Shown here: positions 7,229-23,270 of the stretch, in pieces | Layout: each line of letters starts with the position of its first letter | How positions within the stretch are numbered: position 1 is the stretch's first letter | Assembly: GCF_022024035.1 (NCBI RefSeq) | Contig: NZ_CP091787.1 | Coordinates: 1 to 64,000, forward strand | Source of the DNA: Prevotella sp. E13-17 | GTDB taxonomy: Bacteria > Bacteroidota > Bacteroidia > Bacteroidales > Bacteroidaceae | Direction: 5' to 3' | Length of the DNA: 64,000 nucleotides | Notes under the pieces: model-generated | Database searches by the model: none | Told to the model about the DNA's origin: nothing | Seen by the model: the letters and a program-made list of their open reading frames with translations, nothing else | Position numbers and translations under genes: made by a program

Positions 7229-8644
7229 TTATCCAAACAGTTCTTCCATCGTAATAGGCACAGGCGATATTTCCGAATACATGTTCTCTTTGAGTCCGTA
7301 TGTCGTTACAAGGCTTACTTGCACACCACCTTTGTGTCCTGTTTCCTTTTGGAAGGTTTCCATGCGACGGATGATATTTCTATACTCTTTTTCATCAAGA
7401 GTATAATCATCCTTGGAATATTTCATTTCACAGATGGTAACGATACCGTCAGCACGATCTATAACCAAGTCAATCTGAACGGCAGGTTGGCTGTTCTGAC
7501 TGCGCCATGCATAGTATTCATGCCTTATGGCATCAAGACGCAAACCATGTACAATCTGCCTTACATGCCAAAGGCAGACCTTCTCAAATGTCAGTCCATA
7601 CCAGTTGTTTTGCTCAGGGGTGCCGAGTGTGTTGCGCCAAAAATGTTCATCCGTCACTCTGCGAGTTCCAAAACGATAGTGGAAGAGAGAGAAGAAATCT
7701 ATCAACTGGTATATTCCGTTCTTCTGTAATGAACCATTGTTATAACGGCGGATAAAGTCACAATGTTCCAAATCATCCAACATGTCACTAAGATGGCCAT
7801 TGTCCGCAATCTTCAACTCTTTCGCTATCTCTGAACGAGTGTAACCATCTCGATGTGTGCTGAGTAGTCGGACAATCTCCATATATGAATCAGCATTTTT
7901 GAAGAGAGATTTGAAAAGTCTCTGGTACTCATTCTCCAGTTCTGGCTCTGCCGAGAAGAAAAGAGTATCGATGTTGTCTGGCACATTCTTCTTCGGATCA
8001 AGCAGACTCAGATAGTATGGTACTCCACCAAGCACCATATAAGCCTGCAATACGGTAATTCTTGGCCAACGGAATTTCCTGCTTTTTAGATATTCCTCTG
8101 TTTGTCCAAGAGAGAAAGGACGTAGGTGCATGGTGTGAGTGGTGCGCTTATGGAGTCCTGCCTTGTTGTTGACAATATTGCGCATCATCCATGATGTTGC
8201 AGAACCGCACACAACGAAATAGATGTTATCTATCCATGAGGCGCGACTGTTCCAAAACAAATCCAATGCTTGCAAAAATCCAGAACGACGTGTGTCGAAA
8301 CAAGGTAATTCATCAATGAACACAATCAGACGACGCTTGCGGTTCTTGTTTTTCCTCTCCAAGAGTTCCGCGAGTTGTGTAAAAGCCTCAATCCATGTGG
8401 AAGCTTTGTCTCCTTTATGGCCATAGCGTACCAATGCATTATGGAAGGCCTCCATCTCAGTTTCTCGTGACCCGTCAATGACTCCTGTTGCATAGAAGTC
8501 AAACTGATCCTTAAAGAAACTTCGGATAAGGAATGTTTTACCTACACGTCGACGACCGTATAAGGCTATGAATTCACTCTTTCCTGACTCAAAGTAGTCA
8601 GAAAGTTTTTCTAATTCAGATTCCCTGCCAATAATTCTTTCCAT
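7229..8644 (-). CDS. AAA+ ATPase with winged-helix and C-terminal DUF234/PD-(D/E)XK-like region
   Basis: A 471-aa protein. Walker A GRRRVGKT lies near residues 30-37 and Walker B LIVFIDELP near 105-113, followed by sensor-like VVCGSATSWM. A winged-helix region (GYTRSEIAKELKIADNGHLSDMLDDLE) follows, and the C-terminal part QIDLVIDRADGIVTICEMKYS has the D...ExK pattern of a PD-(D/E)XK nuclease fold. This matches the archaeal/bacterial ATPase family with DUF234, often found in accessory and defence regions; its cellular task is unknown. On the minus strand TATCTTTG (8716-8723) is the -7 element. The gene is bracketed by an exact 44-bp repeat, suggesting arrival as a module. Confidence 0.82.
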   Translation of the reverse strand: MERIIGRESELEKLSDYFESGKSEFIALYGRRRVGKTFLIRSFFKDQFDFYATGVIDGSRETEMEAFHNALVRYGHKGDKASTWIEAFTQLAELLERKNKNRKRRLIVFIDELPCFDTRRSGFLQALDLFWNSRASWIDNIYFVVCGSATSWMMRNIVNNKAGLHKRTTHTMHLRPFSLGQTEEYLKSRKFRWPRITVLQAYMVLGGVPYYLSLLDPKKNVPDNIDTLFFSAEPELENEYQRLFKSLFKNADSYMEIVRLLSTHRDGYTRSEIAKELKIADNGHLSDMLDDLEHCDFIRRYNNGSLQKNGIYQLIDFFSLFHYRFGTRRVTDEHFWRNTLGTPEQNNWYGLTFEKVCLWHVRQIVHGLRLDAIRHEYYAWRSQNSQPAVQIDLVIDRADGIVTICEMKYSKDDYTLDEKEYRNIIRRMETFQKETGHKGGVQVSLVTTYGLKENMYSEISPVPITMEELFG

Positions 8645-8907: not shown

Positions 8908-8939
8908 GTTGTGATTTGCTAAAAAGTTTGTATCTTTGC
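8908..8939 (+). promoter_or_regulatory. CRISPR-repeat-like promoter of the broken rhuM copy
   Basis: 30 of 32 nt match the first 32 nt of the CRISPR repeat at 13706-14454, including the tracrRNA-pairing half and the -7 element TATCTTTG (8931-8938). It lies 70 nt upstream of the rhuM fragment. Its relation to the array is discussed in the findings. Confidence 0.75.
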
Positions 8940-9008
8940 CACAGAATAAGAGAAACCTGGATGAAGCTGCTTTTGGCGGCTGTGGGTTGAATTATAAACT
9001 AATCGTCT

Positions 9009-9141
9009 ATGCCTAAGAAATTCGAGATAAGAAACAGTACAGCCGGAGTTCCTGATATTTCAAATAGAAGATAAGGAACAAGGGGTTGAGGTGTACTATA
9101 TTCACCGTGGCAAAATGGTTACGATAAAACGTGTGAAATAA
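9009..9141 (+). pseudogene. Truncated, frameshifted rhuM remnant
   Basis: The first 31 codons match the start of the intact rhuM gene at 12618 at nucleotide level (ATGCCTAAGAAATTCGAGAT onward). An extra G after codon 12 shifts the frame; correcting it gives EFLIFQIEDKEQGVEVYY, almost the same as the intact protein. After the Tyr-Tyr the homology stops and 13 unrelated codons lead to TAA at 9139-9141. The rest of the gene, including the catalytic or binding core, is gone. Upstream spacing and the CRISPR-like promoter are also shared with the intact copy, so this is a decayed duplicate cassette. Confidence 0.8.
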
Positions 9142-9191: not shown

Positions 9192-9246
9192 GTCAGGATT
9201 AATGTCCCTGGTGATTCTGGTCATTTTACCCGAATGAAGTAGCTAA

Positions 9247-10833
9247 TCAATCCTTCTTCCACACCCTGTTTAGGTTTCTGATTTTCGACTTAGCCTTCTG
9301 TCCGCTTACCATCAGTTGGTCATAGATGAAGTCAGGGAACACCAGTGTTGACATGATGACCGAGCCATCGTCGGTAGTCACCTCAATATTCGACTGATCT
9401 ACATACAGGCAGAGTGTCACCTTTTCCTTGTTTGAGAAGACAGATGAGCGCATGTCGGGGATGGCGAAGTTGGGATGGAAGCCCGTGTTTCCTGTCTTGG
9501 CACCTCGGTTGATGACAAGTTCCCTCGTTGCCGCCAGATATTTCACGGTGTAGGCCTGTTCCACGCTGTTAGACAGCTTTATCTCGCAGTCAGCACTCGT
9601 GTCTATCGTTACATTTATCTGATAGGCATCGAGCGATGGTTTTGTGCCATTCATACCCATGGGAAGTGCCCCAAGCAAGGATGATATAGAGGCTGTCTGC
9701 CCCTTCACCGAGTGCCAGTCATCGGCGATGCCTTCAATCTCGCTGACGATGGTGGTCTTCAGCAGTGGCTGTCCATCGTGTTCCTCCAGCACCATTTCGC
9801 GAGGCAGCGTCATGCAGCAGCGCCAAGGTGACACCGGATAACCGCCATACGCCTGGTTGTTCATCCAGCCGATGCACACCGTTCTATCGCCCGTATTGCT
9901 CCAAGTCACGCTGGCATAGTCGTCCATGCCGTGGTCTTCCCAGAGGGGGTAGTTATAGTGGTCAGCAACAAAACGTTTGCCGTTGAAATCACCCACAAAG
10001 TACATGGTGCCCGAGCCAAGGACAGGGCCGCCGCCGCTGATGTTCACCGTGAGCACCCATTTGCGTTCGCCTTTGTACTGCATGGGAAACAGGTCGGTAC
10101 ATTCCCATATACCATCGTTGCATTTTGGATATGCGCTGGCATTGAAGGTGCTGCAGATGCTCCATTCCCTGAGGTTGGCCGATTTCCATATCTGCGCGGT
10201 GTGCTCTCCGCCCAGCGCGAAGACGCAGTACCACATGCTGGTCACGTCGTCCCACACCACTTTGGGGTCGCGATAGTCGCCATGGGTGGTGTTTTTGATG
10301 ACAGGGTTACCTTCATACTTAGTGAAAGTCATGCCCCCGTCGGTGCTGTAGGCGATACACTGCTGTTCGTGAGCACCATGCGCGGTGTACATCGCCACGA
10401 TGGCATTCTCGCCAAAGCCGGCGGTATTGTTTTTGTCGAGCACGGCCGATCCTGAATAGATATAGCCCAGCTCGTCGGGTTCGAGCACCACGGGCTGTTC
10501 TTTCCAGTGAAACAGGTCGGTAGAGGTGGCGTGGCCCCACGAGATGTTACCCCAGTCGTGTCCGTAGGGGTTGTATTGGTAGTAAAGATGCCAAATGCCG
10601 TTGGCATACACCATGCCGTTGGGGTCGTTGATCCAGTTCTTCTCTGGTGTGAAGTGTATCTGTGGACGGTTTTTCTCCCTGTACCATCCGTTGTCAATGG
10701 TGGGAATGTTTTGTTCCACGTTCACTGATGTTCCGCTCACGAATGCGCGCTCTTGTAGTATCACATTCGGATCTTCTGTCTTGCAGGCCACTGCGATGAG
10801 AGCCATTACTGCTATTATTATATTCATTTTCAT
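9247..10833 (-). CDS. GH32 family beta-fructosidase (levanase/inulinase/invertase type), lipoprotein
   Basis: A 528-aa enzyme hydrolysing beta-fructosidic bonds in fructans or sucrose. The signal peptide ends in lipobox LIAVAC (Cys17), so it is membrane anchored. The five-bladed propeller carries the GH32 triad: nucleophile D70 in WINDPNG, D189 in the RDP motif, and acid/base E244 in WECTDLF (most members have WECPDLF). A C-terminal beta-sandwich follows. It is the second gene after the DUF4960 protein, 6 nt downstream, as in Bacteroides levan loci (BT1760/BT1761 arrangement). No SusC/SusD or fructokinase is present here, so the locus is a fragment. Exo or endo action cannot be decided. Confidence 0.92.
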   Translation of the reverse strand: MKMNIIIAVMALIAVACKTEDPNVILQERAFVSGTSVNVEQNIPTIDNGWYREKNRPQIHFTPEKNWINDPNGMVYANGIWHLYYQYNPYGHDWGNISWGHATSTDLFHWKEQPVVLEPDELGYIYSGSAVLDKNNTAGFGENAIVAMYTAHGAHEQQCIAYSTDGGMTFTKYEGNPVIKNTTHGDYRDPKVVWDDVTSMWYCVFALGGEHTAQIWKSANLREWSICSTFNASAYPKCNDGIWECTDLFPMQYKGERKWVLTVNISGGGPVLGSGTMYFVGDFNGKRFVADHYNYPLWEDHGMDDYASVTWSNTGDRTVCIGWMNNQAYGGYPVSPWRCCMTLPREMVLEEHDGQPLLKTTIVSEIEGIADDWHSVKGQTASISSLLGALPMGMNGTKPSLDAYQINVTIDTSADCEIKLSNSVEQAYTVKYLAATRELVINRGAKTGNTGFHPNFAIPDMRSSVFSNKEKVTLCLYVDQSNIEVTTDDGSVIMSTLVFPDFIYDQLMVSGQKAKSKIRNLNRVWKKD

Positions 10834-10839
10834 AAGGAT

Positions 10840-12381
10840 TTATCGTGTTTTAAGGTACTCTATTGCGTTTCTTGCCATTTTTAAAACATTTGACTGGTAC
10901 TGACTATTGTGCGGATAAGCATTCTTGTCGGGCGTGCCGTCGCTATTCTTGTAAGAGAACTCACAGCCACCGTTGCCTATGCATAGCAGCGTGCCCCGAC
11001 ACTCGGTATTGCCCTGACGGGCTTCCCATACGTTGAGCTGACTCACCCAGTCTATCTGTGAGTCCCATACCCCCAATGGGTAGATGCCGTAAATCTCAGT
11101 CAGTGCATCGTAGCAGCGGGGGTCCTGGTTGTTGTAGCCTGTTATCAGACTTGGCAGGTTATGGAACACAATATTATGGTCTTCAGTCCATGCCGGTCCT
11201 TTCACGGTCACATACTTAGAACGTCCGTCGGTGCGCACATCTACATCCTTATAGAGAGGATGAGAGGAGAAGTCCTCCACGAAATAGCTGCCAGGGTTTA
11301 TCTGTACTGCCATGTGCCAGATGCCTCCATTCCAGCTGCCGTTGCCTATGGTCACCCGGTGATCCACACTGCGCATCATGTCTCTGTCCATGCGCCCCAG
11401 GTCGGTGATGAATGCCACGGCGTGCTGCCACAGTACCATGTTTCCACCCGCCTTATACCACTCGCGTATATAGGGCGTGGCCTGCTGAATGCTAACTGGC
11501 TGGTTCCATGCGTCGTCTTCGTTTCCGCTGTCTATATCGCGTATATAGAAGAGCACCCGATAGTCGGCAAGATCCTCAGTTGCTTTGATGTCGGAAGCGC
11601 TGAGAAACTTGCTGTTGGGATATGTTTCGTGAAACCACAGCCATGCGCTGGCTTCATCGTCATCGCCCATGTTCACGCACTCCTCTGGTGAGGCATACTG
11701 GCTCAGGAAAGCCACCTTTTGTTTGCCCGACTTGAAGATGGTGGTCACAGGCAGCGAGCTACCCTTTTCATTGAGTGCCGTCAGCTCGAAGGTCCACGTC
11801 TCGTTGTCGGTAATTTGATCTATCGTATATGTGGTGGCATCGCCTTTCAGTGTTTCCTGTACCATTCGGATGCCATTGGTTCCTTTCAGCAGAATCTCGG
11901 TTGCGTCGTAGCTCGGTGTCCAGCTGACCAACAGTTCGTAGGCGTCGGTACCCTCTTGCTGTTCAACGCAGAGCTGTTGTGGTTTTGTGGCTCCCTGGCG
12001 GGTGTAGGTCTTCATGATAGCATCGCTGTAGTGGGTGCCGTCGAAGAGTCGGAACAGGTAGTCGTAACGCACATTAGTATCAAGATCCTTTTGAATGAGG
12101 GTTGTGGCGCGTGTAGTTTCATGGCAGTAGGGAATGCCGTTGCAAGTGATGGTGATGTCCATCTGCATGTTGTCAGGAAGGAGTGACCACGTCCAAACCA
12201 CCCCATTGTCCTGTTCTGTGCTACTGATGTAGCCCGTGTAGAAAGCATCAAGAGTAAGTGATGCTGGTGGAATGATGATGTCGTCGGCCGCTTTTGTGCA
12301 GCCCATCAGTGCCATACAGATCATCGCTAATGGAAAGCCGAAGAACCGTTGTCGGCAGAAATAATAAATAGTTCTTTTCAT
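10840..12381 (-). CDS. DUF4960-type surface glycan-binding lipoprotein
   Basis: A 513-aa predicted lipoprotein (lipobox ALMGC). The first half shows fibronectin-like strands (PQQLCVEQQEGTDAYELLVS; TYTIDQITDNETWTFELTALN) and the C-terminal half the DUF4960 pattern (NMGDDDEASAWLWFHETYP ... MVLWQHAVAFITDLGRMDR ... GTLLCIGNGGCEFSY). The related BT1761 of the Bacteroides levan locus binds fructan on the cell surface; this assignment rests on recognition and on the adjacent GH32 gene. The start at 12381 gives a proper signal peptide. On the minus strand TACTTTTG (12430-12437) is the -7 element for the two-gene operon. Confidence 0.75.
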   Translation of the reverse strand: MKRTIYYFCRQRFFGFPLAMICMALMGCTKAADDIIIPPASLTLDAFYTGYISSTEQDNGVVWTWSLLPDNMQMDITITCNGIPYCHETTRATTLIQKDLDTNVRYDYLFRLFDGTHYSDAIMKTYTRQGATKPQQLCVEQQEGTDAYELLVSWTPSYDATEILLKGTNGIRMVQETLKGDATTYTIDQITDNETWTFELTALNEKGSSLPVTTIFKSGKQKVAFLSQYASPEECVNMGDDDEASAWLWFHETYPNSKFLSASDIKATEDLADYRVLFYIRDIDSGNEDDAWNQPVSIQQATPYIREWYKAGGNMVLWQHAVAFITDLGRMDRDMMRSVDHRVTIGNGSWNGGIWHMAVQINPGSYFVEDFSSHPLYKDVDVRTDGRSKYVTVKGPAWTEDHNIVFHNLPSLITGYNNQDPRCYDALTEIYGIYPLGVWDSQIDWVSQLNVWEARQGNTECRGTLLCIGNGGCEFSYKNSDGTPDKNAYPHNSQYQSNVLKMARNAIEYLKTR

Positions 12382-12429
12382 GATTAATTTAGTTATTGCG
12401 TAAAAAACAAATGAGTTGTAAAAACATTG

Positions 12430-12437
12430 CAAAAGTA
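12430..12437 (-). promoter_or_regulatory. -7 element of the DUF4960-GH32 operon
   Basis: On the minus strand TACTTTTG, 49 nt upstream of the ATG at 12381; no clear -33 element. Confidence 0.5.
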
Positions 12438-12526
12438 GTTTCTGTCATTTGAACTGTTTGAAAATAACAGGTCAAATAGGAACGTGATTTTTCCAATGAA
12501 CGAAATATCATAGCATATGAAACATT

Positions 12527-12567
12527 TTTGCTAAAATATTAGTATCTTTGCACCGTACATAAACAAC
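12527..12567 (+). promoter_or_regulatory. CRISPR-repeat-like promoter of rhuM
   Basis: 37 of 41 nt match positions 8-48 of the CRISPR repeat, including the TATCTTTG element (12543-12550) and the CATAAACAAC tail, which is not part of any promoter consensus. The first 7 nt of the repeat are not conserved. The ATG of rhuM is 67 nt after the -7 element. Confidence 0.78.
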
Positions 12568-12617
12568 TTAGTGAACACTGTGATTCCGTCACAAGGTTAA
12601 TAACAAGCTAATCATAT

Positions 12618-13643
12618 ATGCCTAAGAAATTCGAGATAAGAAACAGTACAGCCGAGTTCCTGATTTTCCAACTAGAAGGTAAAGAACAGGGTGTTGAGGT
12701 GTACTATAAGGATAAAACTGTATGGTGCACCCAGAAGGCCATGGGGGTGTTGTTCGATTGTTCGGCAGATAATATTGGACTGCATCTGAAGCACATCTTT
12801 GCGAGCGGTGAATTGGAGAAAGATTCAGTTACCGAGAAAATCTCGGCAACTGCTTCTGACGGCAAGAATTACCTGACTCAATTCTACAATCTCGATGCCG
12901 TCATCAGCGTGGGCTATCGTGTGAACAGCATCCGTGCCACCCAGTTCCGCCAGTGGGCCACAAGCGTGCTTCGAGAGTATGCCATCCGTGGCTATGTGCT
13001 TGATAGGAAGCGCATGGAGAATGGAACCTTCTTGGGCGAGGATTACTTTGAGCACCTGCTGGCAGAGATTCGAGAGATTCGTCTTTCAGAGCGTCGTTTC
13101 TACCAGAAGCTGACAGACATCTATGCCACCAGTATGGACTATAACAAGGATGCACCCACCACGCGGCTGTTCTATAAGCGCATTCAAAACAAGATGCACT
13201 ATGCTGTGCATCAGCATACGGCAGCGGAGCTCATCATGGAGCGGGCTGATGCCGAAAAGGAACATATGGGCCTAACCACCTGGGAGAATGCGCCCGATGG
13301 CAAAATAGTTAAAACGGATGTTTCTATCGCCAAAAATTATCTGAACGAGATGGAACTCGAAGATATGGGGCATATCGTAACTGCTGTGCTTGACTTTGCC
13401 GAGAGCCGTGCCAAGCGCCATATCCCTATGACGATGGAGGATTGGGCCAAACGTATTGATGCCTATCTGAGCAGCGACGAGCGCCCTTTGTTGAACGATG
13501 CTGGTAGTGTAACTCACGAAGAGGCTGTGCTACATGCTGAAACTGAGTTTGAGAAGTATCGTATCGTGCAGGACCGCCTGTTCCAAAGCGACTTTGACAA
13601 ATACCTAGGCGAACTGCCATTTGAGGAGAAAGACTCCGAATAA
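12618..13643 (+). CDS. rhuM: RhuM-family protein
   Basis: A 341-aa cytoplasmic protein recognised by its N-terminal block (EFLIFQLEGKEQGVEVYYKDKTVWCTQKAMGVLFDCS), the central HLKHIFASGELEKDS ... VGYRVNSIRATQFRQWATSVLREYAIRGYVLD region and the C-terminal TTWENAPDGKIVKTDVSIAKNYL. The family is named after a Salmonella pathogenicity-island gene and is widespread in accessory and defence regions; biochemical activity is not established, and a toxin- or nuclease-like role is only suspected. The gene ends 62 nt before the first CRISPR repeat, and its promoter resembles that repeat. A decayed second copy of the cassette is at 8908-9141. Confidence 0.85.
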   Translation: MPKKFEIRNSTAEFLIFQLEGKEQGVEVYYKDKTVWCTQKAMGVLFDCSADNIGLHLKHIFASGELEKDSVTEKISATASDGKNYLTQFYNLDAVISVGYRVNSIRATQFRQWATSVLREYAIRGYVLDRKRMENGTFLGEDYFEHLLAEIREIRLSERRFYQKLTDIYATSMDYNKDAPTTRLFYKRIQNKMHYAVHQHTAAELIMERADAEKEHMGLTTWENAPDGKIVKTDVSIAKNYLNEMELEDMGHIVTAVLDFAESRAKRHIPMTMEDWAKRIDAYLSSDERPLLNDAGSVTHEEAVLHAETEFEKYRIVQDRLFQSDFDKYLGELPFEEKDSE

Positions 13644-13705
13644 GAATTAAATTAGTCATTTAGACCAGTGTGAGCCACAATTTTGTTGCTCTGGCACAGC
13701 AACCA
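13644..13705 (+). other. Short leader between rhuM and the CRISPR array
   Basis: 62 nt containing a 6-bp hairpin (GTTGCT 13685-13690 / AGCAAC 13698-13703) directly before repeat 1. No -7 promoter element is seen here, consistent with transcription starting inside the repeats. No T-run terminator for rhuM is present. Confidence 0.5.
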
Positions 13706-14454
13706 GTTGTGATTTACAAAAAAATTAGTATCTTTGCACTGAGCATAAACAACTTTTTACCTTTCAACAAAAAAGACCACACAGTTGTGATTTGCTAAAA
13801 AATTAGTATCTTTGCACTGAGCATAAACAACTATCCAAGTAAACAAGTACATAACGTCTATGTTGTGATTTGCTAAAAAATTAGTATCTTTGCACTGAGC
13901 ATAAACAACATGGTTGCTCCACTTCCAAAGTAACCCCACGTTGTGATTTGCTAAAAAATTAGTATCTTTGCACTGAGCATAAACAACGTTGGTGAGCGCG
14001 AGGCCGCTCACAAAATGGTTGTGATTTGCTAAAAAATTAGTATCTTTGCACTGAGCATAAACAACCGTCAGCACATCGGGCGTATAGAAAAAGGTGTTGT
14101 GATTTGCTAAAAAATTAGTATCTTTGCACTGAGCATAAACAACTTTCTCATTAAACTGGTGTATGTCCTGTTGGTTGTGATTTGCTAAAAAATTAGTATC
14201 TTTGCACTGAGCATAAACAACAAGCACCAGACGCAATAACATTACTAGTTAGTTGTGATTTGCTAAAAAATTAGTATCTTTGCACTGAGCATAAACAACT
14301 AAGAAATTCCTGATAAAACAAAGAATTAGTTGTGATTTGCTAAAAAATTAGTATCTTTGCACTGAGCATAAACAACATTTTTTAACCTTCTTTGTCGCTT
14401 AGTGCAGTTGTGATTTGCTAAAAAATTAGTATCTTTGCACTGAGCATAAACAAC
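13706..14454 (+). CRISPR. Type II-C CRISPR array, 10 repeats of 48 nt and 9 spacers
   Basis: Repeats start at 13706, 13784, 13862, 13940, 14018, 14096, 14174, 14252, 14329 and 14407. Spacers are 30 nt, except spacer 8 (14300-14328), which is 29 nt. Repeats 2-10 are identical; repeat 1 differs at positions 11 and 13 only. The repeat opens GTTGTGATTTGCTAAAAA and ends GAGCATAAACAAC. Its 5' half pairs with the anti-repeat of the tracrRNA at 20291-20312, so crRNAs are read on the plus strand. Positions 1-4 (GTTG) and 24-31 (TATCTTTG), 19 nt apart, form a Bacteroidota promoter inside every repeat. Spacer 4 contains a GTGAGC/GCTCAC inverted repeat. No spacer clearly matches elsewhere in the window. 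Confidence 0.97.
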
Positions 14455-14526
14455 TCGAGCTGAAAAATGTACTGATTATCAGTGAGTTGCAAAGAAAATT
14501 AGAAAAAGAAAAATGGTGCAAAAAAA

Positions 14527-14561
14527 GAGGAGAATCTCACATTAGATGCGAGTTTCTCCTC
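14527..14561. terminator. Bidirectional terminator between CRISPR array and cas2
   Basis: GAGGAGAATCTC (14527-14538) pairs with GAGTTTCTCCTC (14550-14561) with a single T-T mismatch. It is flanked by an A-run on the left and T-rich DNA on the right, so it can stop both the plus-strand array transcript and the minus-strand cas9-cas1-cas2 transcript. Confidence 0.75.
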
Positions 14562-14603
14562 TTCTATTTAATTACCTCTTAATAACACCAGCAAGAAGCG
14601 GGA

Positions 14604-15874
<1,271 letters not shown>

Positions 15875-15887
15875 AGACAAAATAGTT

Positions 15888-18800
15888 TTAGTATTCACCA
15901 ATTGAAACAATTTGGCCAACATGATTAACCCGAACCTTAAGAATTCCTGTAATACCATTAAGTCCTAATTGTGGTTTATAGGTTATTCCTTTTAGTTCTT
16001 TTGGCTCAGCCACTGTCGTTTCCAAGTGGTGTCTAAAGAAGTAGTTTTTTGTGGCAATCTTTTGTATTCGATATAGGTTTGGACTGATCACAGCATAGTT
16101 CTCCGGATTGCGGTACCAGTTTTCATCATAATCCAATGGATTAAATATCATATTTCCTTCGTCATCATATCTTGGAAATACAAAATATTCATTTTGTTTC
16201 ATGGTAAAGAGAAATTGCCATCCATCTTCTTTTTTATACTCCTTATCAATTATAGGATATCCAAGGTTTGCACGTGATGTAGCTTCAAAGAAAGAAACAA
16301 CTTTTTCGTCTAATTCGTATAATGGTTCTCCATCGTCTGCAAATAATTGCTTACCATTTTTATCGGCTTTGGGTTTACGATAGATTGCCACATGATGATT
16401 GTTTCCTGTGTTGACAAAGCTTGTAGGTTGCTTCTTTCCATTCTTGTCAAAAATGAGTTTTCCGTCTTTGTCCCTTTTGTCATGTAGTGCTATCGCATTA
16501 CTAATACCAGTTATTGTAACTCGTTTAATGGATATTCCCTTTTCCTTATTAAGCCATATAGGGTTTTCTTCGAGGTTTGAGAATGCCTTTTTACTGTCAC
16601 CGTTATATTTCTCAAGGCGTTCTTGAAGTATAGTTCTTATTCTATTGTCAATGACCTTATCTATTTTTAGTTCAGGCGTGATTTCCTTCCTGATGGTATA
16701 AATATCTTCATATGTAATTGTCTTTACCTTTTCTGGAACTTTTTCTGTATGTTCGCGATTTATCCAAACAGGGTTCTTCTCCAAGCTGTTTTTGCCTGTA
16801 AATGCTTTTTTAGGATTATCTCCAAATTGATGTATTCTATTTGTGAGAGCTTCGCGGTATGCTTTCTTACAGACAGAGAGAATTTTGTTCATGTCAAAAG
16901 AAGCATTGATCTTTTCTTCTCTAATAACAGGAGATTTACTCATTCCATAAATGGTCTCAAGATGTAGCTGACCACGTGGTGTTAGTTGAATGGTACTTTT
17001 TGTTCCATTCTTTTTCTTCGTAATGTTGGTATTACGTGTTGCAACTTTGTTTTTAGCTTTGTTCGAAACAATGATACTCTCTAGATGTCGTTTAGCTTCT
17101 TTTCTAAACTCATCAATAGGCATTGGAGGTATAAAGCGCAATCTACCATTTCTGTCACGCAGTAACTCTTTTTTCTCTATAGCGTACATAACTTCTGAGC
17201 GTTGATTTTTGTCCAGTGTGGCAAGATTGATCTTGTCTAAATCAATATACTGATTAACACTCTTTTGTACTCTTGCATTCAGATTGTTGAGATACTGGAT
17301 ATAGCTTTGTTTTGTAAATGCTATTGTCAAAGCGTCCATTGCGTGATGGCGATGGTCATTACGCTTCGTCCAGTCTTTGATACGTGGAATACGCTGACCG
17401 TCCCGACCGATTTCTATTTCAGTTAATCCGAGCTTATTATATTTTTTCCAGTTCAACTCTTGCATGATATTTACAAGCTGCCAGTCATCACGTAATCTGT
17501 CGGTTACACTTCCAGTTGTTGGCACAACGACAGCCACGTATTCCTCAAGAATTTCTCTGGCTTTTTTCGCAATATACTGAGAGTCACGAAGGTCACGATT
17601 AATGAAGCCACTGGGAATCTCTGCTTCCTTCATTAGTAGTTTTTCTCTTTTTGTCTTGCTTATTGCGCCACTGTTGAATAGGTCTTCTATCTTGCTGGCA
17701 TATTTCGTAGCATACTCTTTGCCATAATTACTTTCAATAAAGTCAAAGGCAGTCATGTCTCTTTTATCCAGATTGACTTGACGGGCTTCAAGTGTTTTAT
17801 TGGAGAGGGAGTCATCAAAGAGTTTGGCTTTAGGTACAATATGCTCAATCTCAAATTCTTTGCTGAAAAGTTTTTCCTGTGCTATGTAAGTATCAGAATA
17901 AAGTGTTTTGAATGCATTTTTCTCCAGTTCCAAATATAATTTATAACGTATAATATCGTTGTGACTTACATGAGAAAGGTAGAAAGGAGCTCCCTTTAGT
18001 GTTTTGACGTATTCTTCGTGTAGTTTTGTTGTCGCATTAATAGATTTGGTCATCTCTTCACGCTCTTTGGCTGACTTCTTGAGTTCGCGGGCGAGTTCAA
18101 TGCGAATCTCATCCGGTTTTCCATATGTAGCCGAAATTTCATTGACCACGTTAATCATTTGGTTTAGAATCTTTTCTACTACAGGATTGCGCAGACTGTT
18201 ACGTGGAAGGAGATCTAGTTTATCCTTTAAGGCTTTGTTCTCTATCTCTTCTTTTGTAAGTGATCTAGCGGAATGTCGGTAGCCTGCGTATTCACAAGCG
18301 ACACTGTAGTCATTGCCGTCCTTCATGTAAGGAAGAATTTTGCGTATGGCCTTAGCACTTAAGCTGGCATAATCTGGTTTGAATACTACATCAGATAGAA
18401 TTGTAGCGCAATCTTTGTCGAAACCAAACTGTTCGGAAATTTTTTTTATCAATAATTCATTTCCCATAATAGAGTCATCTCCCTCAAACGAATAAAGTAG
18501 ATGCCATAAGCGGTATGATGCTTGTTGCTCAATAGCATGTCCGTTAATTGAGGAATCAAATGTGAGTATATCAGTATTGAATCCAAGCCCAAAGAAAATA
18601 TCCTTAACTATGTTTACGACATCATGTGTATCCATTTTTGCAAAGTCGTAACTACCATGTCCAGTCACTTCAATAATCGTTTGATAGGCCTTGAAGAGTT
18701 CTGCTTGGGTTGTATTTCCGTCCAGCATTTTGAAATTCATGTCATACTCTTTTGGCTTATCAAAAAGAATTTTGAGTATATCAACTTTTGATAACTTTTC

Positions 18801-20198
18801 TTTGTAGCTCAGTTCTTCAAATAACCTTTCTTTTTCCTCTTGATATAATGGACGTTTTCCATCCTTGAACGATACTACGTTGTCGAACAAGTCATGTTGA
18901 GATACAGGAATAACCTTTCCTGATATGACGACGTCATTAAGCTTTTGCCATATTTTGAACTCTTGAAATAATGGAGATGACTTTGGACATCCCTTTAGTC
19001 CGATGGTCTTTTTCTTAGGCTTGCCTTTGATATCAATCGTAACTTTCCTGCTTTCAAACTCGCAGAATGAAATGAGTCCTTTTTGTGATTTTAACGGTCT
19101 TTGATAGAATATGATAATATCTTTGATGGTTTTCTTTAATTCTTCTGTCAGTTCTTTGTGAAATTTAGCCTGTGTTTCCCAAATCGTTTCAAATTCATTG
19201 AGATAGTCTTGCCTATAGAATACCTTGTTTTTCAAACTGAAATTGGGATTCTTTTTTAATTCTGACATAAGGTATTGGCCGACAGTCTGCTTGTTAAAAT
19301 AAAGAATCTTACTACGGTCGCTTATACCTCCAAGATAGCCGCTGGCACTACTGATTTGTCCATTAATCTCTTGTAGTACAATAGCAAGCTTTTCTAATTC
19401 CATTTTCTGTGAAAGGGCTGAAACACGCCATTGGTATGTTTCAATTTTCTGTTCAAGACCTTTGGTTTGTCGTTTGAAACCAACAATCATAAAAGGCTTT
19501 TCACAAATTGCCCATGTCTGACTCTTGTTCTTCCCACTTAGTTCGTCTTTTAGTTTATCTGTCAGAATTTCAGAGTAGAACAGTTGCTGTTTATTCCAGA
19601 CTTTATTGAACTCGTCTGTTAAATCTGAGCGATAATACTCAGGAAGATACTTCTTTCCATTCTGAAGCATGCGCAATGAAAGCTGCCCAGGCGTAATATT
19701 TTCATTGTGTAGTTGCATGGCTATTTCCATCCCATCTATAAGTTGGCCTTCTTCTGTTGTTTTGGCTTTGCGACTGCTTTTATAACCACGCTTCTTATTA
19801 ATCTGTAGCAATATACGAGCAAATTCAGACAAGCTTACCTCTTCTGTTGCAGCCTTAGCCCTTAGCCTGTAGGTCTCAAATGTCGTATCATTGCCATTCT
19901 CTGATAATATGGTCTCATCATTGATAAAACCATGTTGCTTCAATATAGAAATCAGGTAATCGCGACGTAACTTATATCTCTGCAAATTCCTGCGCATGCC
20001 ACGCTTTAAGGTTCTATTAGCATTGGTAGTTATGCTTTTCCCCTTTTCGAAATTTATACTTTCATCAATGGTCAATGGATTGACTCTGACGCCTAATCGT
20101 ATGATGGATGAATTTTCTGTGTCATGTTTCTCTTTTTCATTGACTAGCGCCCATCCTATGCTTGTTGTTCCTAAATCAAGACCGAGTATCTTTTTCAT
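15888..20198 (-). CDS. cas9: RNA-guided endonuclease Cas9, type II-C (Bacteroidota group)
   Basis: A 1436-aa effector that cuts DNA matched by the crRNA:tracrRNA pair. All catalytic motifs are present: RuvC-I with D8 in GLDLGTTSIGWA, an Arg-rich bridge helix near 59-80 (NANRTLKRGMRRNLQRYKLR), RuvC-II with E701 in IRIELARE, HNH with H786 (FEIEHIVPKAK) and N800, and RuvC-III with H952 and D955 (HRHHAMDALTIAF). The REC region is long, as usual for Bacteroidota Cas9, and the C-terminal PAM-interacting part is rich in Asn/Lys. Nothing suggests inactivation. The upstream 92-nt region before the tracrRNA holds TATTTTTG on the minus strand (20228-20235) as a possible -7 element. The PAM cannot be read from sequence. 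Confidence 0.97.
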   Translation of the reverse strand: MKKILGLDLGTTSIGWALVNEKEKHDTENSSIIRLGVRVNPLTIDESINFEKGKSITTNANRTLKRGMRRNLQRYKLRRDYLISILKQHGFINDETILSENGNDTTFETYRLRAKAATEEVSLSEFARILLQINKKRGYKSSRKAKTTEEGQLIDGMEIAMQLHNENITPGQLSLRMLQNGKKYLPEYYRSDLTDEFNKVWNKQQLFYSEILTDKLKDELSGKNKSQTWAICEKPFMIVGFKRQTKGLEQKIETYQWRVSALSQKMELEKLAIVLQEINGQISSASGYLGGISDRSKILYFNKQTVGQYLMSELKKNPNFSLKNKVFYRQDYLNEFETIWETQAKFHKELTEELKKTIKDIIIFYQRPLKSQKGLISFCEFESRKVTIDIKGKPKKKTIGLKGCPKSSPLFQEFKIWQKLNDVVISGKVIPVSQHDLFDNVVSFKDGKRPLYQEEKERLFEELSYKEKLSKVDILKILFDKPKEYDMNFKMLDGNTTQAELFKAYQTIIEVTGHGSYDFAKMDTHDVVNIVKDIFFGLGFNTDILTFDSSINGHAIEQQASYRLWHLLYSFEGDDSIMGNELLIKKISEQFGFDKDCATILSDVVFKPDYASLSAKAIRKILPYMKDGNDYSVACEYAGYRHSARSLTKEEIENKALKDKLDLLPRNSLRNPVVEKILNQMINVVNEISATYGKPDEIRIELARELKKSAKEREEMTKSINATTKLHEEYVKTLKGAPFYLSHVSHNDIIRYKLYLELEKNAFKTLYSDTYIAQEKLFSKEFEIEHIVPKAKLFDDSLSNKTLEARQVNLDKRDMTAFDFIESNYGKEYATKYASKIEDLFNSGAISKTKREKLLMKEAEIPSGFINRDLRDSQYIAKKAREILEEYVAVVVPTTGSVTDRLRDDWQLVNIMQELNWKKYNKLGLTEIEIGRDGQRIPRIKDWTKRNDHRHHAMDALTIAFTKQSYIQYLNNLNARVQKSVNQYIDLDKINLATLDKNQRSEVMYAIEKKELLRDRNGRLRFIPPMPIDEFRKEAKRHLESIIVSNKAKNKVATRNTNITKKKNGTKSTIQLTPRGQLHLETIYGMSKSPVIREEKINASFDMNKILSVCKKAYREALTNRIHQFGDNPKKAFTGKNSLEKNPVWINREHTEKVPEKVKTITYEDIYTIRKEITPELKIDKVIDNRIRTILQERLEKYNGDSKKAFSNLEENPIWLNKEKGISIKRVTITGISNAIALHDKRDKDGKLIFDKNGKKQPTSFVNTGNNHHVAIYRKPKADKNGKQLFADDGEPLYELDEKVVSFFEATSRANLGYPIIDKEYKKEDGWQFLFTMKQNEYFVFPRYDDEGNMIFNPLDYDENWYRNPENYAVISPNLYRIQKIATKNYFFRHHLETTVAEPKELKGITYKPQLGLNGITGILKVRVNHVGQIVSIGEY

Positions 20199-20254: not shown

Positions 20255-20286
20255 TTTGGAACATTCAAAGAAATTATTTATCTTTG
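20255..20286 (+). promoter_or_regulatory. tracrRNA promoter
   Basis: TTTG (20255-20258), exactly 20 nt, then TATCTTTG (20279-20286). This canonical promoter predicts transcription from about 20291-20293, where the anti-repeat begins. It lies back to back with the cas9 start. Confidence 0.85.
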
Positions 20287-20290
20287 CATC

Positions 20291-20377
20291 ACTAATTTTT
20301 AGCAAATCACAATAAGGATTATTCCGTTGTGAAAACATTAGGTCCCGGCCCATCGTCCTTCAACGGTGGGCCTTTTC
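20291..20377 (+). ncRNA. tracrRNA
   Basis: About 87 nt. The anti-repeat (20291-20312, ACTAATTTTTAGCAAATCAC plus AA) is complementary to repeat positions 2-24 with one A skipped. A short nexus region (TAAGGATTATTCCGTTGTG) follows, then a terminator hairpin: GGCCCATCGT (20347-20356) with ACGGTGGGCC (20363-20372), including one T-G pair, then TTTT. It is transcribed divergently from cas9 and would form the guide duplex that Cas9 uses; RNase III is expected to trim the duplex. The 5' end is inferred from the promoter. Confidence 0.92.
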
Positions 20378-20730
20378 TTCTTGCGGGGAAATGGCAAGAC
20401 ACACTAGGGACGGTTGCGGGTGTTTGTGGCGCTTTGGTTTCTTCTTGCGGGGAAACCGCAAGACACACTAGGGACGGTTGCGGGTGTTTGTGGCGCTTTG
20501 GTTTCTTCTTGCGGGGAAATGGCAAGACACACTAGGGACGGTTGCGGGTGTTTGTGGTGCTTTGGTTTCTTCTTGCGGGGAAACCGCAAGACACACTAGG
20601 GACGGTTGCGGGTGTTTGTGGTGCTTTGGTTTCTTCTTGCGGGGAAACCGCAAGACACACTAGGGACGGTTGCGGGTGTTTGTGGTGCTTCGGTTTTTTC
20701 TTGCGGGGAAACCGCAAGACATGCTAGGGG
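20377..20730. repeat. 64-bp tandem repeat, about 5.5 copies, each with a hairpin
   Basis: Copies start at 20377, 20441, 20505, 20569, 20633 and (partial) 20697. Each begins with CTTGCGGGGAAA followed by CCGCAAG (copies 2, 4, 5, 6: a perfect 7-bp stem) or TGGCAAG (copies 1, 3: a 5-bp stem). The other variable site is GGCGCTT/GGTGCTT. The period is not a multiple of three, so the array does not code. It starts at the tracrRNA terminator and ends about 120 nt before the RAYT transposase, so REP-type sequence linked to that gene is the likeliest identity. Confidence 0.85.
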
Positions 20731-20851
20731 GCGTATTGGTTGTTTTTTATGGGGTATCTGCATTTTTTTTGATGATGATGGGCGGCGGTTTGCAGGAAAA
20801 CAGGTAACTTTGCGGCTCTAAACTATACTTGATAATATATAAAAAAGGTGT

Positions 20852-22003
20852 ATGGAAAAGGGGCATAATATGAAACGGCGATGTGAGTTTCATGACTATA
20901 GACGGACGGGCATCTACCATATTACTCTTGTACTAAACGATAGAAGAACGCAGGCTTTGGGACGTATCGTGGGTGATCTGAATAGGGATGATGATGATCC
21001 GAATGGTCCTCATGTGGCTTTGTCGGCTATTGGCTTGATGGTGCAACGAGAATTGCGGAATAGTATCTCTAAGTACTACCCGATGGTTGAGATTCAGGAT
21101 TATGTGATTATGCCAGATCATGTGCATTTTATTGCTGTGGTACATAGGGATGTGGTTAGCAGAAATGGTCATGTGATGCATCTGGGACATGTGATTGCTG
21201 GTTTTAAGAAGGGGTGTAATAGGCTCTTTTGGGAAATGACTGGGATGGAAAGGCAGACGGATGGCTATGTGGAAGGTGAAAAGGTGCCATCGAAGGCGTG
21301 TAGTGACAGACCTTCTCTTTTTGACTCAGGCTATGTGGACGTGATGCCTCTGCAAAGCGAACAGTTGGAGCAGCAGCGGCAATATATCAGGAAGAACCCA
21401 AGAATGCGCTTGATTCGTATGTCAAGCTGTGGGGGACTGAGGATTCAGAAGGGTGGTGTTGATACAGCATTGACATTTCCTGCTCTGCATGGCTATCTGG
21501 AACGGGAGTGCGATGCCTCGCAAATGGATAACGGGACTTGGCTGATGCTGAAGGAACGGTTGCTGGATGAAGGTGGAAAGGTGGGTTGTAACACTTATGG
21601 TCACAGGAGCTTGTTGCAGAAACGGCTGTTGCCAGTGGTGTGTCATCGTAAGGACAAGTCCCTCTTTGGACGACAGAAGCAGCGGTGTCTGCAGGCGGCC
21701 AGGGATGGGGCTGTGTTGGTGTCTGCCCGCATAGCCAAAGGCGAGCAGGATATTATGGCGGCAGTGATGGCGCAAGGCTCTGCTGTGATTATTGTGCTAG
21801 ATAATGGTTTTGCGGAGATGTATCATCCTTCGGAAGAGAAGATGCAGGCCTGCCTTGAGGGTCGGCTACTGTTTGCGACGCCTTGGCATTATCGCTACCA
21901 TCGCAGGGATGAGAAGATATCAGTGGCAGAGTGCAAATCGATGAACTGTATAGTGCAGGCATTATGCCGCCGACGTGACGACTGGTGGCAATATGATGAA
22001 TAG
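20852..22003 (+). CDS. REP-associated (RAYT/IS200-like) transposase family protein
   Basis: A 383-aa protein with the Y1 transposase fold: the start RRCEFHDYRRTGIYHITLVLNDR, then QDYVIMPDHVHFIAVV with the HUH metal-binding pair (HVH), and IAGFKKGCNRLFWEMTG with LFDSGYVDVM and RQYIRKNPRMRLIR. These match a Bacteroidota RAYT subgroup. No Tyr is found at the usual nucleophile position in the helix after HUH (FKKGCN); Y in DSGYVD is a candidate. The C-terminal ~190 residues have no recognised domain. The gene sits behind a tandem hairpin repeat, as expected for a RAYT. TAACTTTG (20805-20812) is a -7 element. Domesticated or still active is undecided. Confidence 0.78.
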   Translation: MEKGHNMKRRCEFHDYRRTGIYHITLVLNDRRTQALGRIVGDLNRDDDDPNGPHVALSAIGLMVQRELRNSISKYYPMVEIQDYVIMPDHVHFIAVVHRDVVSRNGHVMHLGHVIAGFKKGCNRLFWEMTGMERQTDGYVEGEKVPSKACSDRPSLFDSGYVDVMPLQSEQLEQQRQYIRKNPRMRLIRMSSCGGLRIQKGGVDTALTFPALHGYLERECDASQMDNGTWLMLKERLLDEGGKVGCNTYGHRSLLQKRLLPVVCHRKDKSLFGRQKQRCLQAARDGAVLVSARIAKGEQDIMAAVMAQGSAVIIVLDNGFAEMYHPSEEKMQACLEGRLLFATPWHYRYHRRDEKISVAECKSMNCIVQALCRRRDDWWQYDE

Positions 22004-22008
22004 TGTAA

Positions 22009-22036
22009 TGCCGTGGTTCCCCCACGGTATTTTTTT
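22009..22036 (+). terminator. Terminator after the RAYT gene
   Basis: TGCCGTGG (22009-22016) pairs with CCACGGTA (22022-22029) with one G-T pair, around a TTCCC loop, followed by a run of T residues. Confidence 0.85.
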
Positions 22037-22087
22037 TCTACCATTATCTCTACCGCGAAGGTGCTTGCTTTGGCTTGTGAATTGTTG

Positions 22088-22095
22088 TACCTTTG
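22088..22095 (+). promoter_or_regulatory. -7 element of the M15-HU-smalltalk operon
   Basis: TACCTTTG, with TTGC 19 nt upstream as an imperfect -33. It gives a 5' untranslated leader of about 70 nt before the ATG at 22173. Confidence 0.6.
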
Positions 22096-22172
22096 CACCG
22101 TCGAAAGGAATGAGAGACATCCCGACAAGGATATACCAACCTTATATACCTTAATAATTATAATAGAAAACC

Positions 22173-22616
22173 ATGAGAACACAAACACAACTGACGGAGC
22201 ATTTCTCGCTCCAAGAAATGACGGCTTCGGGAACGGCCATCCGGCTGGGACTGAAAAACGAGCCTGGACAGAAAGAGGTGGAAGCGCTGAGGCATCTCTG
22301 TGAAGATGTGCTGGAACCACTGAGACAACGATTCGGACGTGTCATCATTGCAAGCGGCTATCGCTGTGAAGCAGTAAACAGTGCTGTGGGGGGAGTAGCG
22401 AACTCACAACACATGCGCGGCGAGGCGGCCGACATTCACTGCGGATCAAGGCAGACGGCACAGCGCTACTTCCTCTTTATCAGCGAGCAGCTGGAGTTCG
22501 ACCAACTGCTGCTGGAGCGACGACTCAGCAATGGCTGCTGCTGGATTCACGTGAGCTACATCTTCCAGCCGGGAAGAAGGCCTAACAGGCGTATGGCCAG
22601 GGAACTCGATGTTTAA
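22173..22616 (+). CDS. M15-family peptidase (D-Ala-D-Ala carboxypeptidase/endolysin-like)
   Basis: A 147-aa zinc peptidase domain without signal peptide. Zinc ligands are clear: H80 and D87 in SQHMRGEAADIH and H126 in WIHVSY; SGYRCEAVNSAVGG precedes them. Family members cleave peptide crosslinks of peptidoglycan and are common as phage or prophage lysins. Here it precedes an HU-like gene and a smalltalk peptide, a cassette usually carrying an N-acetylmuramoyl-alanine amidase. Lack of a signal peptide suggests export or release by another route, or a cytoplasmic role. Confidence 0.88.
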   Translation: MRTQTQLTEHFSLQEMTASGTAIRLGLKNEPGQKEVEALRHLCEDVLEPLRQRFGRVIIASGYRCEAVNSAVGGVANSQHMRGEAADIHCGSRQTAQRYFLFISEQLEFDQLLLERRLSNGCCWIHVSYIFQPGRRPNRRMARELDV

Positions 22617-22692
22617 GAGAATAATCAATGTGCAGAGGCACAAACATAGTAAACAACAAATTTTTTTAACCATTTAAAACACACAAAAAATT

Positions 22693-23136
22693 ATGAAACT
22701 GTTTTTTAAGAAGTATGTCAACGAAGTGAAGAATTCAAAGATGTTCGGTAAGTGGTATGCCCGCGTGGCCATCACCGAGACCGTGGGTATCGAAGAGATT
22801 GCCGTGAAGATGCAGGACAGCTGTACGTTGAAGCGTGCCGACATCCTGGCTGTGCTGAGTGAGTTGGGTCCCACGGTGCGCGACCTGCTTCAGGACTCAA
22901 AGCGCGTGAAGCTGCCCTATCTGGGTTCATTTAAGTTGGCCATCAGCACCACTGGAGCCGATAGTGCCGAGGCATTTACAGCCAGCAACGTGAAGAGCGT
23001 GAGGGTGGCTTTCCAGCCTGAGACCCACATCTCGGCCGACAAACACCGCGTGAAGGAGCTGACCAGTGGCTGCCGACTGATGGAGTTGCCCGAGTATGGC
23101 TACTCGAAGGGCGAGGATGTGGAGAATAACGACTGA
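22693..23136 (+). CDS. HU-like DNA-binding protein (Bacteroidota HU-related family)
   Basis: A 147-aa protein, paralogous to the one at 5290-5715. It has NSKMFGKWYARVAITETVG, the block LKRADILAVLSELGPTVRDLL and SKRVKLPYLGSFKLAIST, then the family tail FQPETHISADKHRVKELTS. These are the HU body and arm regions of the long Bacteroidota form. It is the middle gene of M15-HU-smalltalk, and the strand and spacing indicate one transcript. It probably binds DNA non-specifically; a regulatory role in the cassette is possible but unproven. Confidence 0.85.
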   Translation: MKLFFKKYVNEVKNSKMFGKWYARVAITETVGIEEIAVKMQDSCTLKRADILAVLSELGPTVRDLLQDSKRVKLPYLGSFKLAISTTGADSAEAFTASNVKSVRVAFQPETHISADKHRVKELTSGCRLMELPEYGYSKGEDVENND

Positions 23137-23168
23137 TCTGGTGGAATAAACGAAACAAGGCGCAGATT

Positions 23169-23270
23169 ATGAAGAAGATGGATATTTGGAAGTTTATACT
23201 ACAGACCACCATTGCCGTGCTGACGGCTATTGCCACCTCGCTGGGTGTGATATCGTGTGTGGCAGGATAG
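23169..23270 (+). CDS. Smalltalk family small protein
   Basis: A 33-aa peptide (MKKMDIWKFILQTTIAVLTA, then IATSLGVISCVAG). The basic start, WKFILQ, a hydrophobic stretch and a Cys near the end match the smalltalk family, tiny proteins found beside HU-like and cell-wall hydrolase genes in Bacteroidota. One membrane helix or a small lipoprotein-like anchor is likely. Function is unknown; by context it could act with the M15 peptidase. It ends 21 nt before a strong terminator. Confidence 0.78.
   Translation: MKKMDIWKFILQTTIAVLTAIATSLGVISCVAG

Follow-up and report, generated by a model that had tools for sequence, protein, structure and literature searches.

CRISPR repeats have been reused as RNAs, tracrRNA, scaRNA and CreA being the known cases, and in the type II-C arrays of Neisseria a promoter is contained in every repeat. 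Promoters embedded in the repeats are likewise reported for the II-C arrays of Flavobacterium in the accessible part of PMC10309648.

The stretch of 64,000 nt from Prevotella sp. E13-17 analysed here (hereafter, the window) contains a solitary repeat-like element, R0, upstream of the gene rhuM. R0 and the repeats of the nearby array resemble those of Flavobacterium, as far as these are covered by the accessible text (PMC10309648), in having a putative embedded promoter of the Bacteroidota type directed to the leader (variable) end, the difference being that crRNA is made there, whereas R0 would presumably give rise to a protein-coding mRNA. In the literature searched, which was mostly free of subscription and partly available as excerpts, no CRISPR repeat acting as the promoter of a protein gene was found.

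A degenerate repeat outside the array, next to a candidate toxin gene, is what R0 has in common with CreTA (PMC9458426). Compared with CreTA as described in the accessible part of that report, however, R0 has neither a creA-like repeat-spacer-repeat unit nor a matching guide, rhuM is a protein gene whereas the CreTA toxin is a toxic RNA, and R0 sits on rhuM's own promoter and persists where no Cas9 is found. The type II setting and an exapted repeat near a promoter are shared with the scaRNA and long tracrRNA controls (PMC9458426, PMC8730458); unlike what the excerpts of these reports describe, no RNA combining a pairing repeat with a rhuM guide was found here and the local tracrRNA promoter leaves almost no 5' extension. 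Finally, an ORF with a RhuM domain adjoins the II-C system also in B. fragilis (PMC5704556), where it lies between cas1 and cas9, a repeat-derived promoter not being mentioned in the available part of that report. The analysis described below makes it likely, in our judgement, that the rhuM promoter of the window derives from a repeat and that rhuM is not under the control of Cas9.

The type II-C locus and its repeat class

The array of the window (13706-14454, plus strand) comprises 10 repeats of 48 nt, having the sequence GTTGTGATTTGCTAAAAAATTAGTATCTTTGCACTGAGCATAAACAAC, and 9 spacers; repeat 1 (13706) is degenerate, so that its side can be taken as the trailer end. The array is followed on the minus strand by the leader (14455-14603), which includes a block common to 11 of 13 relatives aligned, by cas2 (14604-14942; profile match), by a type II cas1 (14939-15958; TIGR03639) and by a cas9 of 1436 aa (15888-20198; profile match), and on the plus strand by a tracrRNA gene (20255-20400, its end being approximate) with a promoter at 20255-20286 and an anti-repeat at ~20291-20313 that, compared with positions 1-24 of the repeat, is shorter by one base. 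The locus has all the components of a II-C system, namely cas9, cas1, cas2, tracrRNA and array, the absence of csn2 and cas4 being judged at the locus, where no further cas gene lies among cas9, cas1 and cas2 since these genes abut. The window's genome consists of a single contig of 3.45 Mb, and rhuM is found on the side of the array opposite cas2. The Rfam family CRISPR-DR49 matched all 10 repeats at 27-30 bits, i.e., under its gathering score of 41, and gave no match with R0.

The relatives of Cas1 belong mostly to Prevotella and kin (best 80 of 221 loci). Sixty-four of these best 80 loci gave an array and 16 none; the repeats start with GTTGTGA in 62 of the 64 arrays and contain TAnnTTTG in 48 (16 being without), while CATAAACA[AT]C is present in 10 and the exact CATAAACAAC in 3 of the same arrays. 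When R0 was aligned with these repeats, the best score (33) was obtained with the window's own repeat, followed by those of loci L109 (32), L167, L120 and L115 (30 each). Because the leader block is on the cas2 side (the exceptions among the 13 relatives being L113 and L120) and degenerate repeats are found at the end away from the leader, as in the window, L112, L113, L116 and L117, R0 and rhuM can be placed at the old end of the array.

rhuM and its upstream sequences in other genomes

The rhuM gene (12618-13643, plus strand) encodes a protein of 341 aa of the Virulence_RhuM family (PF13310, E 9.2e-106), and its best PADLOC matches are the PDC-S05 models, which we take to be phage-defence candidates. 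Its 5' leader (12568-12617, plus strand) can be aligned with that of a second rhuM copy described below, and its predicted fold (12556-12640) is no more structured than those of shuffled sequences (z -0.21).

Fifty rhuM loci from 299 genomes, gathered as 30 + 20 with remoter matches left out and with a few start codons extrapolated, were compared. The element is present at two of them only, those of the window and of a sister genome, G277; in 48/48 other cases the upstream sequences are unrelated to R0. Since, on the other hand, the repeat class occurs in the arrays of many species, the repeat represents the wider and presumably the older element. A descent of the array repeat from the promoter of rhuM, one of the possibilities put forward in the earlier note, is thereby left unsupported and very unlikely: repeat and rhuM promoter do have a common promoter layout, but the head of the repeat pairs with the anti-repeat of the tracrRNA, which is a property of CRISPR, and an origin at rhuM is at odds with the GTTGTGA start of so many arrays and with the 48 unrelated upstream sequences.

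The presence of rhuM in a genome is not significantly associated with that of the array, rhuM being found in 8/12 array genomes vs 143/299 overall (Fisher p 0.24); array genomes are here those having at least two core matches among 298 other genomes, as tallied by hand, and the table counts the window's genome as array-less, the corrected count being 9/13. RhuM matches were found at 5/80 II-C loci (best 80 of 221 Cas1 loci). One such locus is L113, where a fragment resembling rhuM (7782-8298; 55% identity over 86 residues) adjoins another II-C array on its trailer side.

R0 compared with ordinary promoters

The near copy described in the earlier note is real: R0 (12527-12567, plus strand) equals repeat positions 8-48 at 37/41 nucleotides, its tail being identical at 11 of 14 positions. 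Also the 62-nt gap between rhuM and the array is as claimed, the gene ending at 13643 and repeat 1 starting at 13706; R0 itself is 1.1 kb from the array. By contrast, the seven nucleotides before R0 (12520-12526, plus strand), AAACATT where the repeat has GTTGTGA, match repeat positions 1-7 at 0/7, and the head that pairs with the tracrRNA is absent from R0.

The promoter consensus of sigma-ABfr consists of TAnnTTTG at -7 and TTTG near -33 (PMC7366714, accessible part). The box TATCTTTG inside R0 (12543-12550, plus strand) fits the former, whereas at the usual spacing R0 has AAC instead of the -33 TTG. The -33 TTG is present in the array repeat and in the promoter of the second rhuM copy, its end lying 19 nt upstream of the -7 box; among 97 promoter-like sites in a 400-kb sample of the genome, a TTG ending 19-20 nt before the box is present in 32 and lacking in 65.

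A likeness of this kind could in principle arise by convergence, R0 being an ordinary promoter that resembles the repeat through a common consensus. Indeed, the 15-mer core TTAGTATCTTTGCAC is a promoter box found all over the genome, with 161 sites at ≤2 mismatches, of which 11 are rhuM and the array, compared to 12 for the reversed pattern. A match to the core alone is thus no proof, and R0 was consequently scored against other promoters. Twenty other core sites (≤1 mismatch) reach at most 29/41 vs the repeat, and the 97 promoter-like sites (TAnnTTTGCA), together with every other position of the 400-kb sample, at most 27/41. In the complete list of 32 sites from the whole genome (3.45 Mb), the pattern TTTGCACnnnnCATAAACAAC at 0-1 mismatch is confined to rhuM and the array. 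Of 398 genomes of the genus, 29 have a site ≤2 mismatches from the 27-nt core and at least one place was inspected in each of them; seven turned out to be ordinary promoters without repeat head, and these look-alikes reach only 27-30/41, with 2-5/14 in the tail. The earlier remark that the tail goes beyond what a promoter consensus demands therefore holds, the tail pattern being moreover unique in the genome outside the array.

R0 is degenerate, lies outside the array and has an identity to the repeat exceeding that of all background sites compared, as befits an ectopic repeat. Since its tail CATAAACAAC recurs in the repeats of other species and the second rhuM copy keeps the head GTTGTGA, R0 is to be regarded as a decayed II-C repeat; homology to the array repeat is shown by these sequence comparisons, and convergence, in view also of R0 lying 1.1 kb from the array, is very unlikely.

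A second, truncated rhuM copy

A 5' fragment of a second rhuM (9009-9100, plus strand; ATG at 9009), truncated and frameshifted, is present in the window and is identical to rhuM at 102/116 positions over 8985-9100, which corresponds to a divergence of ~12%. It is preceded by a promoter, GTTGTGATTTGCTAAAAAgTTtGTATCTTTGC, in which the -33 TTG is present, and by a leader (8908-9008, plus strand); this promoter matches the repeat at 34/48 positions and at 30/34 over positions 1-34. The head GTTGTGA is kept and the tail decayed, R0 being the reverse. Aligned over promoter and leader together, the two copies score 20 vs a maximum of 9 in 300 shuffles, whereas the leaders alone, with 5.0 vs a shuffle maximum of 4.5, are barely above background. 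Given that the head matches the repeat in one copy and the tail in the other, the two elements would be most simply explained as decayed daughters of one full repeat, the simplest ancestor being a complete repeat before rhuM.

The sister genome G277 and the exchange of CRISPR type

In G277 (an assembly 99% complete, in 30 contigs) rhuM is 98% identical and the 41 nt of R0 are identical to those of the window. Behind rhuM, G277 has type V-A repeats (three full, one truncated), cas2 and a Cas12a of 1264 aa; in this genome the Cas9 RuvC_III family gave no match and the II-C repeat core was not found a second time within 3 mismatches, and conversely no Cas12a match was found in the window's genome. 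The identity between the two genomes is 98.1% over 9236-13666, 82-88% in the left flank, 95% in the tracrRNA region, 93% over 20650-23270 and 85% beyond. The segment 9236-13666, which contains GH32, DUF4960 and rhuM, has probably been exchanged recently between the two lineages.

The tracrRNA region of G277 is 95% identical over 159 nt, the -7 box, the anti-repeat and the 3' part that follows being unchanged in the compared stretch, and its retention indicates that a II-C system was formerly at this site. This gene (L104, contig C14, 19406-19573) stands beside the Cas12a locus in a genome without Cas9 match, as would result from an exchange in place of II-C by V-A; in the literature searched, mostly outside the subscription journals, no reports of orphan tracrRNAs were found. 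The window, in turn, carries directly behind rhuM (13645-13665, strand not assigned) a V-A (Cas12a) repeat remnant that matches the G277 V-A repeat at 20/21 positions, the best background matches being 16/21 within 400 kb of sequence and 15 among the 3' flanks of 48 other rhuM loci. From the V-A locus with leftover tracrRNA in G277 and the V-A half-repeat in the window it follows, on a comparison of two genomes, that the site held both CRISPR types, or swapped pieces with one that did, with rhuM and its repeat being retained. The second rhuM copy, the half-repeat behind rhuM and the exchange of CRISPR type add to what the earlier note had described.

Is rhuM guarded by Cas9?

The earlier note had also raised the prospect of a rhuM guarded by Cas9. 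According to this model, Cas9 together with an array guide or with an RNA like scaRNA or CreA would repress rhuM via R0, and the loss of Cas9 would free the toxin. The model draws on the proposal that RhuM is a toxin domain (PMC3710099, accessible part) and on the fact that degenerate ectopic repeats are marks of CreTA and scaRNA (PMC9458426, accessible part). Furthermore, spacer 8 matches the start of rhuM at 20/29 nt, exceeding all 50 shuffles of this spacer (maximum 19). When all nine spacers are counted, however, 22/300 surrogates reach 20/29, the match of spacer 8 does not extend to the PAM-proximal end and all of 100 surrogates attain the best value (9) for a 12-nt seed; overall, none of the 9 array spacers matches 12301-13705 above chance, where a CreTA guide would be expected. 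R0 lacks the head for pairing with the tracrRNA, lies upstream of the expected transcript start and is not accompanied by a second repeat behind a spacer, so that, with seed matches at the level of chance, the features of a scaRNA-type element are missing as well.

The CreTA principle that the toxin is tolerated only along with its Cas effector does not apply to this candidate toxin as far as sequences can tell, given that G277 has an intact rhuM frame and an identical R0, yet neither a Cas9 match nor an array made up of the II-C repeat. Moreover, the element is absent at all 48 other rhuM loci compared. Control of rhuM by Cas9 is not supported; having no guide and no pairing head, and with G277 doing without Cas9, the regulated-toxin model was rejected, the residual probability that it is correct being very small.

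Probable origin and predicted activity of the rhuM promoter

Since the repeats of this class include a promoter of the Bacteroidota type (GTTG...TATCTTTG), rhuM is probably transcribed from a captured repeat, from which the -33 TTG is now missing. R0 would once have been a repeat of a II-C array of the same class, in which crRNA synthesis would normally start from a Bacteroidota promoter within each repeat. At the old (trailer) end of the array, rhuM would then have arrived immediately behind one of the repeats and with the same orientation as the latter, this founding insertion being deduced from the present arrangement. RNA polymerase would start within the tail of the repeat and read through a leader of ~60 nt into rhuM. 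With time R0 would have drifted, losing in the intact copy the head GTTGTGA, which comprises both the -33 TTG and the start of the pairing with the tracrRNA, and keeping the -7 box and the tail. The loss of the -33 TTG means that R0 is perhaps weak or superseded by another promoter; we infer that it works, though less strongly, with the transcript starting in the tail. rhuM would thus probably be an independent gene on a borrowed CRISPR promoter, presumably with weak constitutive expression, and would have stayed in place while the adjoining module changed, this being II-C with Cas9 in the window and V-A with Cas12a in G277.

Of the possibilities considered in the earlier note, the entry of rhuM into an old array fits best: the trailer position, the decay being more advanced than that of repeat 1 and the complementary part of the repeat kept in copy 2 all agree with it, the insertion itself being the part that goes unseen. 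The neighbouring DUF4960 gene occurs in 68/299 genomes and, of the 20 loci compared, only those of the window and G277 have rhuM; the 18/18 others (47-65% identical, flanks ≤1.5 kb) have neither repeat nor rhuM and, being distant, offer no empty array site.

Alternatively, a ready-made cassette, consisting of repeat-promoter and rhuM or of rhuM and a V-A system, may have been transferred to the array's trailer, the tie between R0 and rhuM having been formed elsewhere. That the repeat-rhuM unit may have arisen elsewhere is suggested by the ~12% separating the two rhuM copies, which have promoter and leader in common; the V-A half-repeat directly behind rhuM and the high identity of 9236-13666 to G277 compared with the left flank point in the same direction. 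Against this stands the fact that no free cassette was found among the 50 rhuM loci from 299 genomes. We regard the cassette as a possibility of some weight, albeit somewhat short of an even chance, and it is compatible with a repeat-derived promoter free from Cas9 control, insofar as it disputes only where the unit was formed.

Split-off and ectopic repeats elsewhere

Other repeats separated from their arrays were looked for in those 41 arrays (from the best 80 of 221 Cas1 loci) whose distal flank was 1 kb or longer. In five of them (L115, L124, L134, L141 and L147) a repeat at least 80% identical is split off by >500 nt, and a weaker case (74%, 0.3 kb) is found in L184. The gap contains a Fic gene and a fragment of EcoRI methylase in L115 and HicA in L124, while in L134, L141 and L147 the content has no Pfam match. 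The gap ORF has the direction of the repeat in the last three and not in L115 and L124, so that with 3/5 split arrays only no orientation bias is shown; in L141 and L147 the ORF begins 30-40 nt behind the split-off repeat, in the same direction. In L124 (12496-13555) the HicA toxin gene is accompanied, between the array end and the split-off repeat, by a HicB-like ORF without Pfam match that is presumably HicB, and in L134 (13775-15405) an ORF of 531 aa lies between II-C repeats and may be either a gene-sized insert or an assembly join.

Among the ectopic elements, that of G366 (L258, 1494-1540), a case similar to R0 as are L141 and L147, matches the local repeat at 45/47 positions and lies ~61 kb from the array on the same contig; a NUDIX gene follows it at a distance of 78 nt, with further promoter-like boxes between repeat and gene. 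Solitary elements with the full repeat head were found in G217, G032 and G155; in the latter (L255, 1494-1620) a full-length II-C repeat stands directly before a sequence resembling the 3' part of tracrRNA, with no evident anti-repeat, and may represent a repeat acting as a promoter.

What a repeat-derived promoter would mean

In R0, a CRISPR repeat has apparently been reused as DNA, namely as the promoter of a protein gene. For a degenerate II-C repeat found before a gene, promoter reuse offers a simple alternative to regulation by Cas. The pair formed by the window and G277 presents a CRISPR site with Cas9 and Cas12a systems in turn, and with a tracrRNA gene left without a Cas9 match. Tentatively, and as a generalization that we rate as rather unlikely, the II-C repeats of Bacteroidota may be portable promoters for genes landing in the trailer of an array, with rhuM being a lasting second-line defence gene that would have been kept through the exchange of Cas9 and Cas12a on a promoter of the crRNA type.
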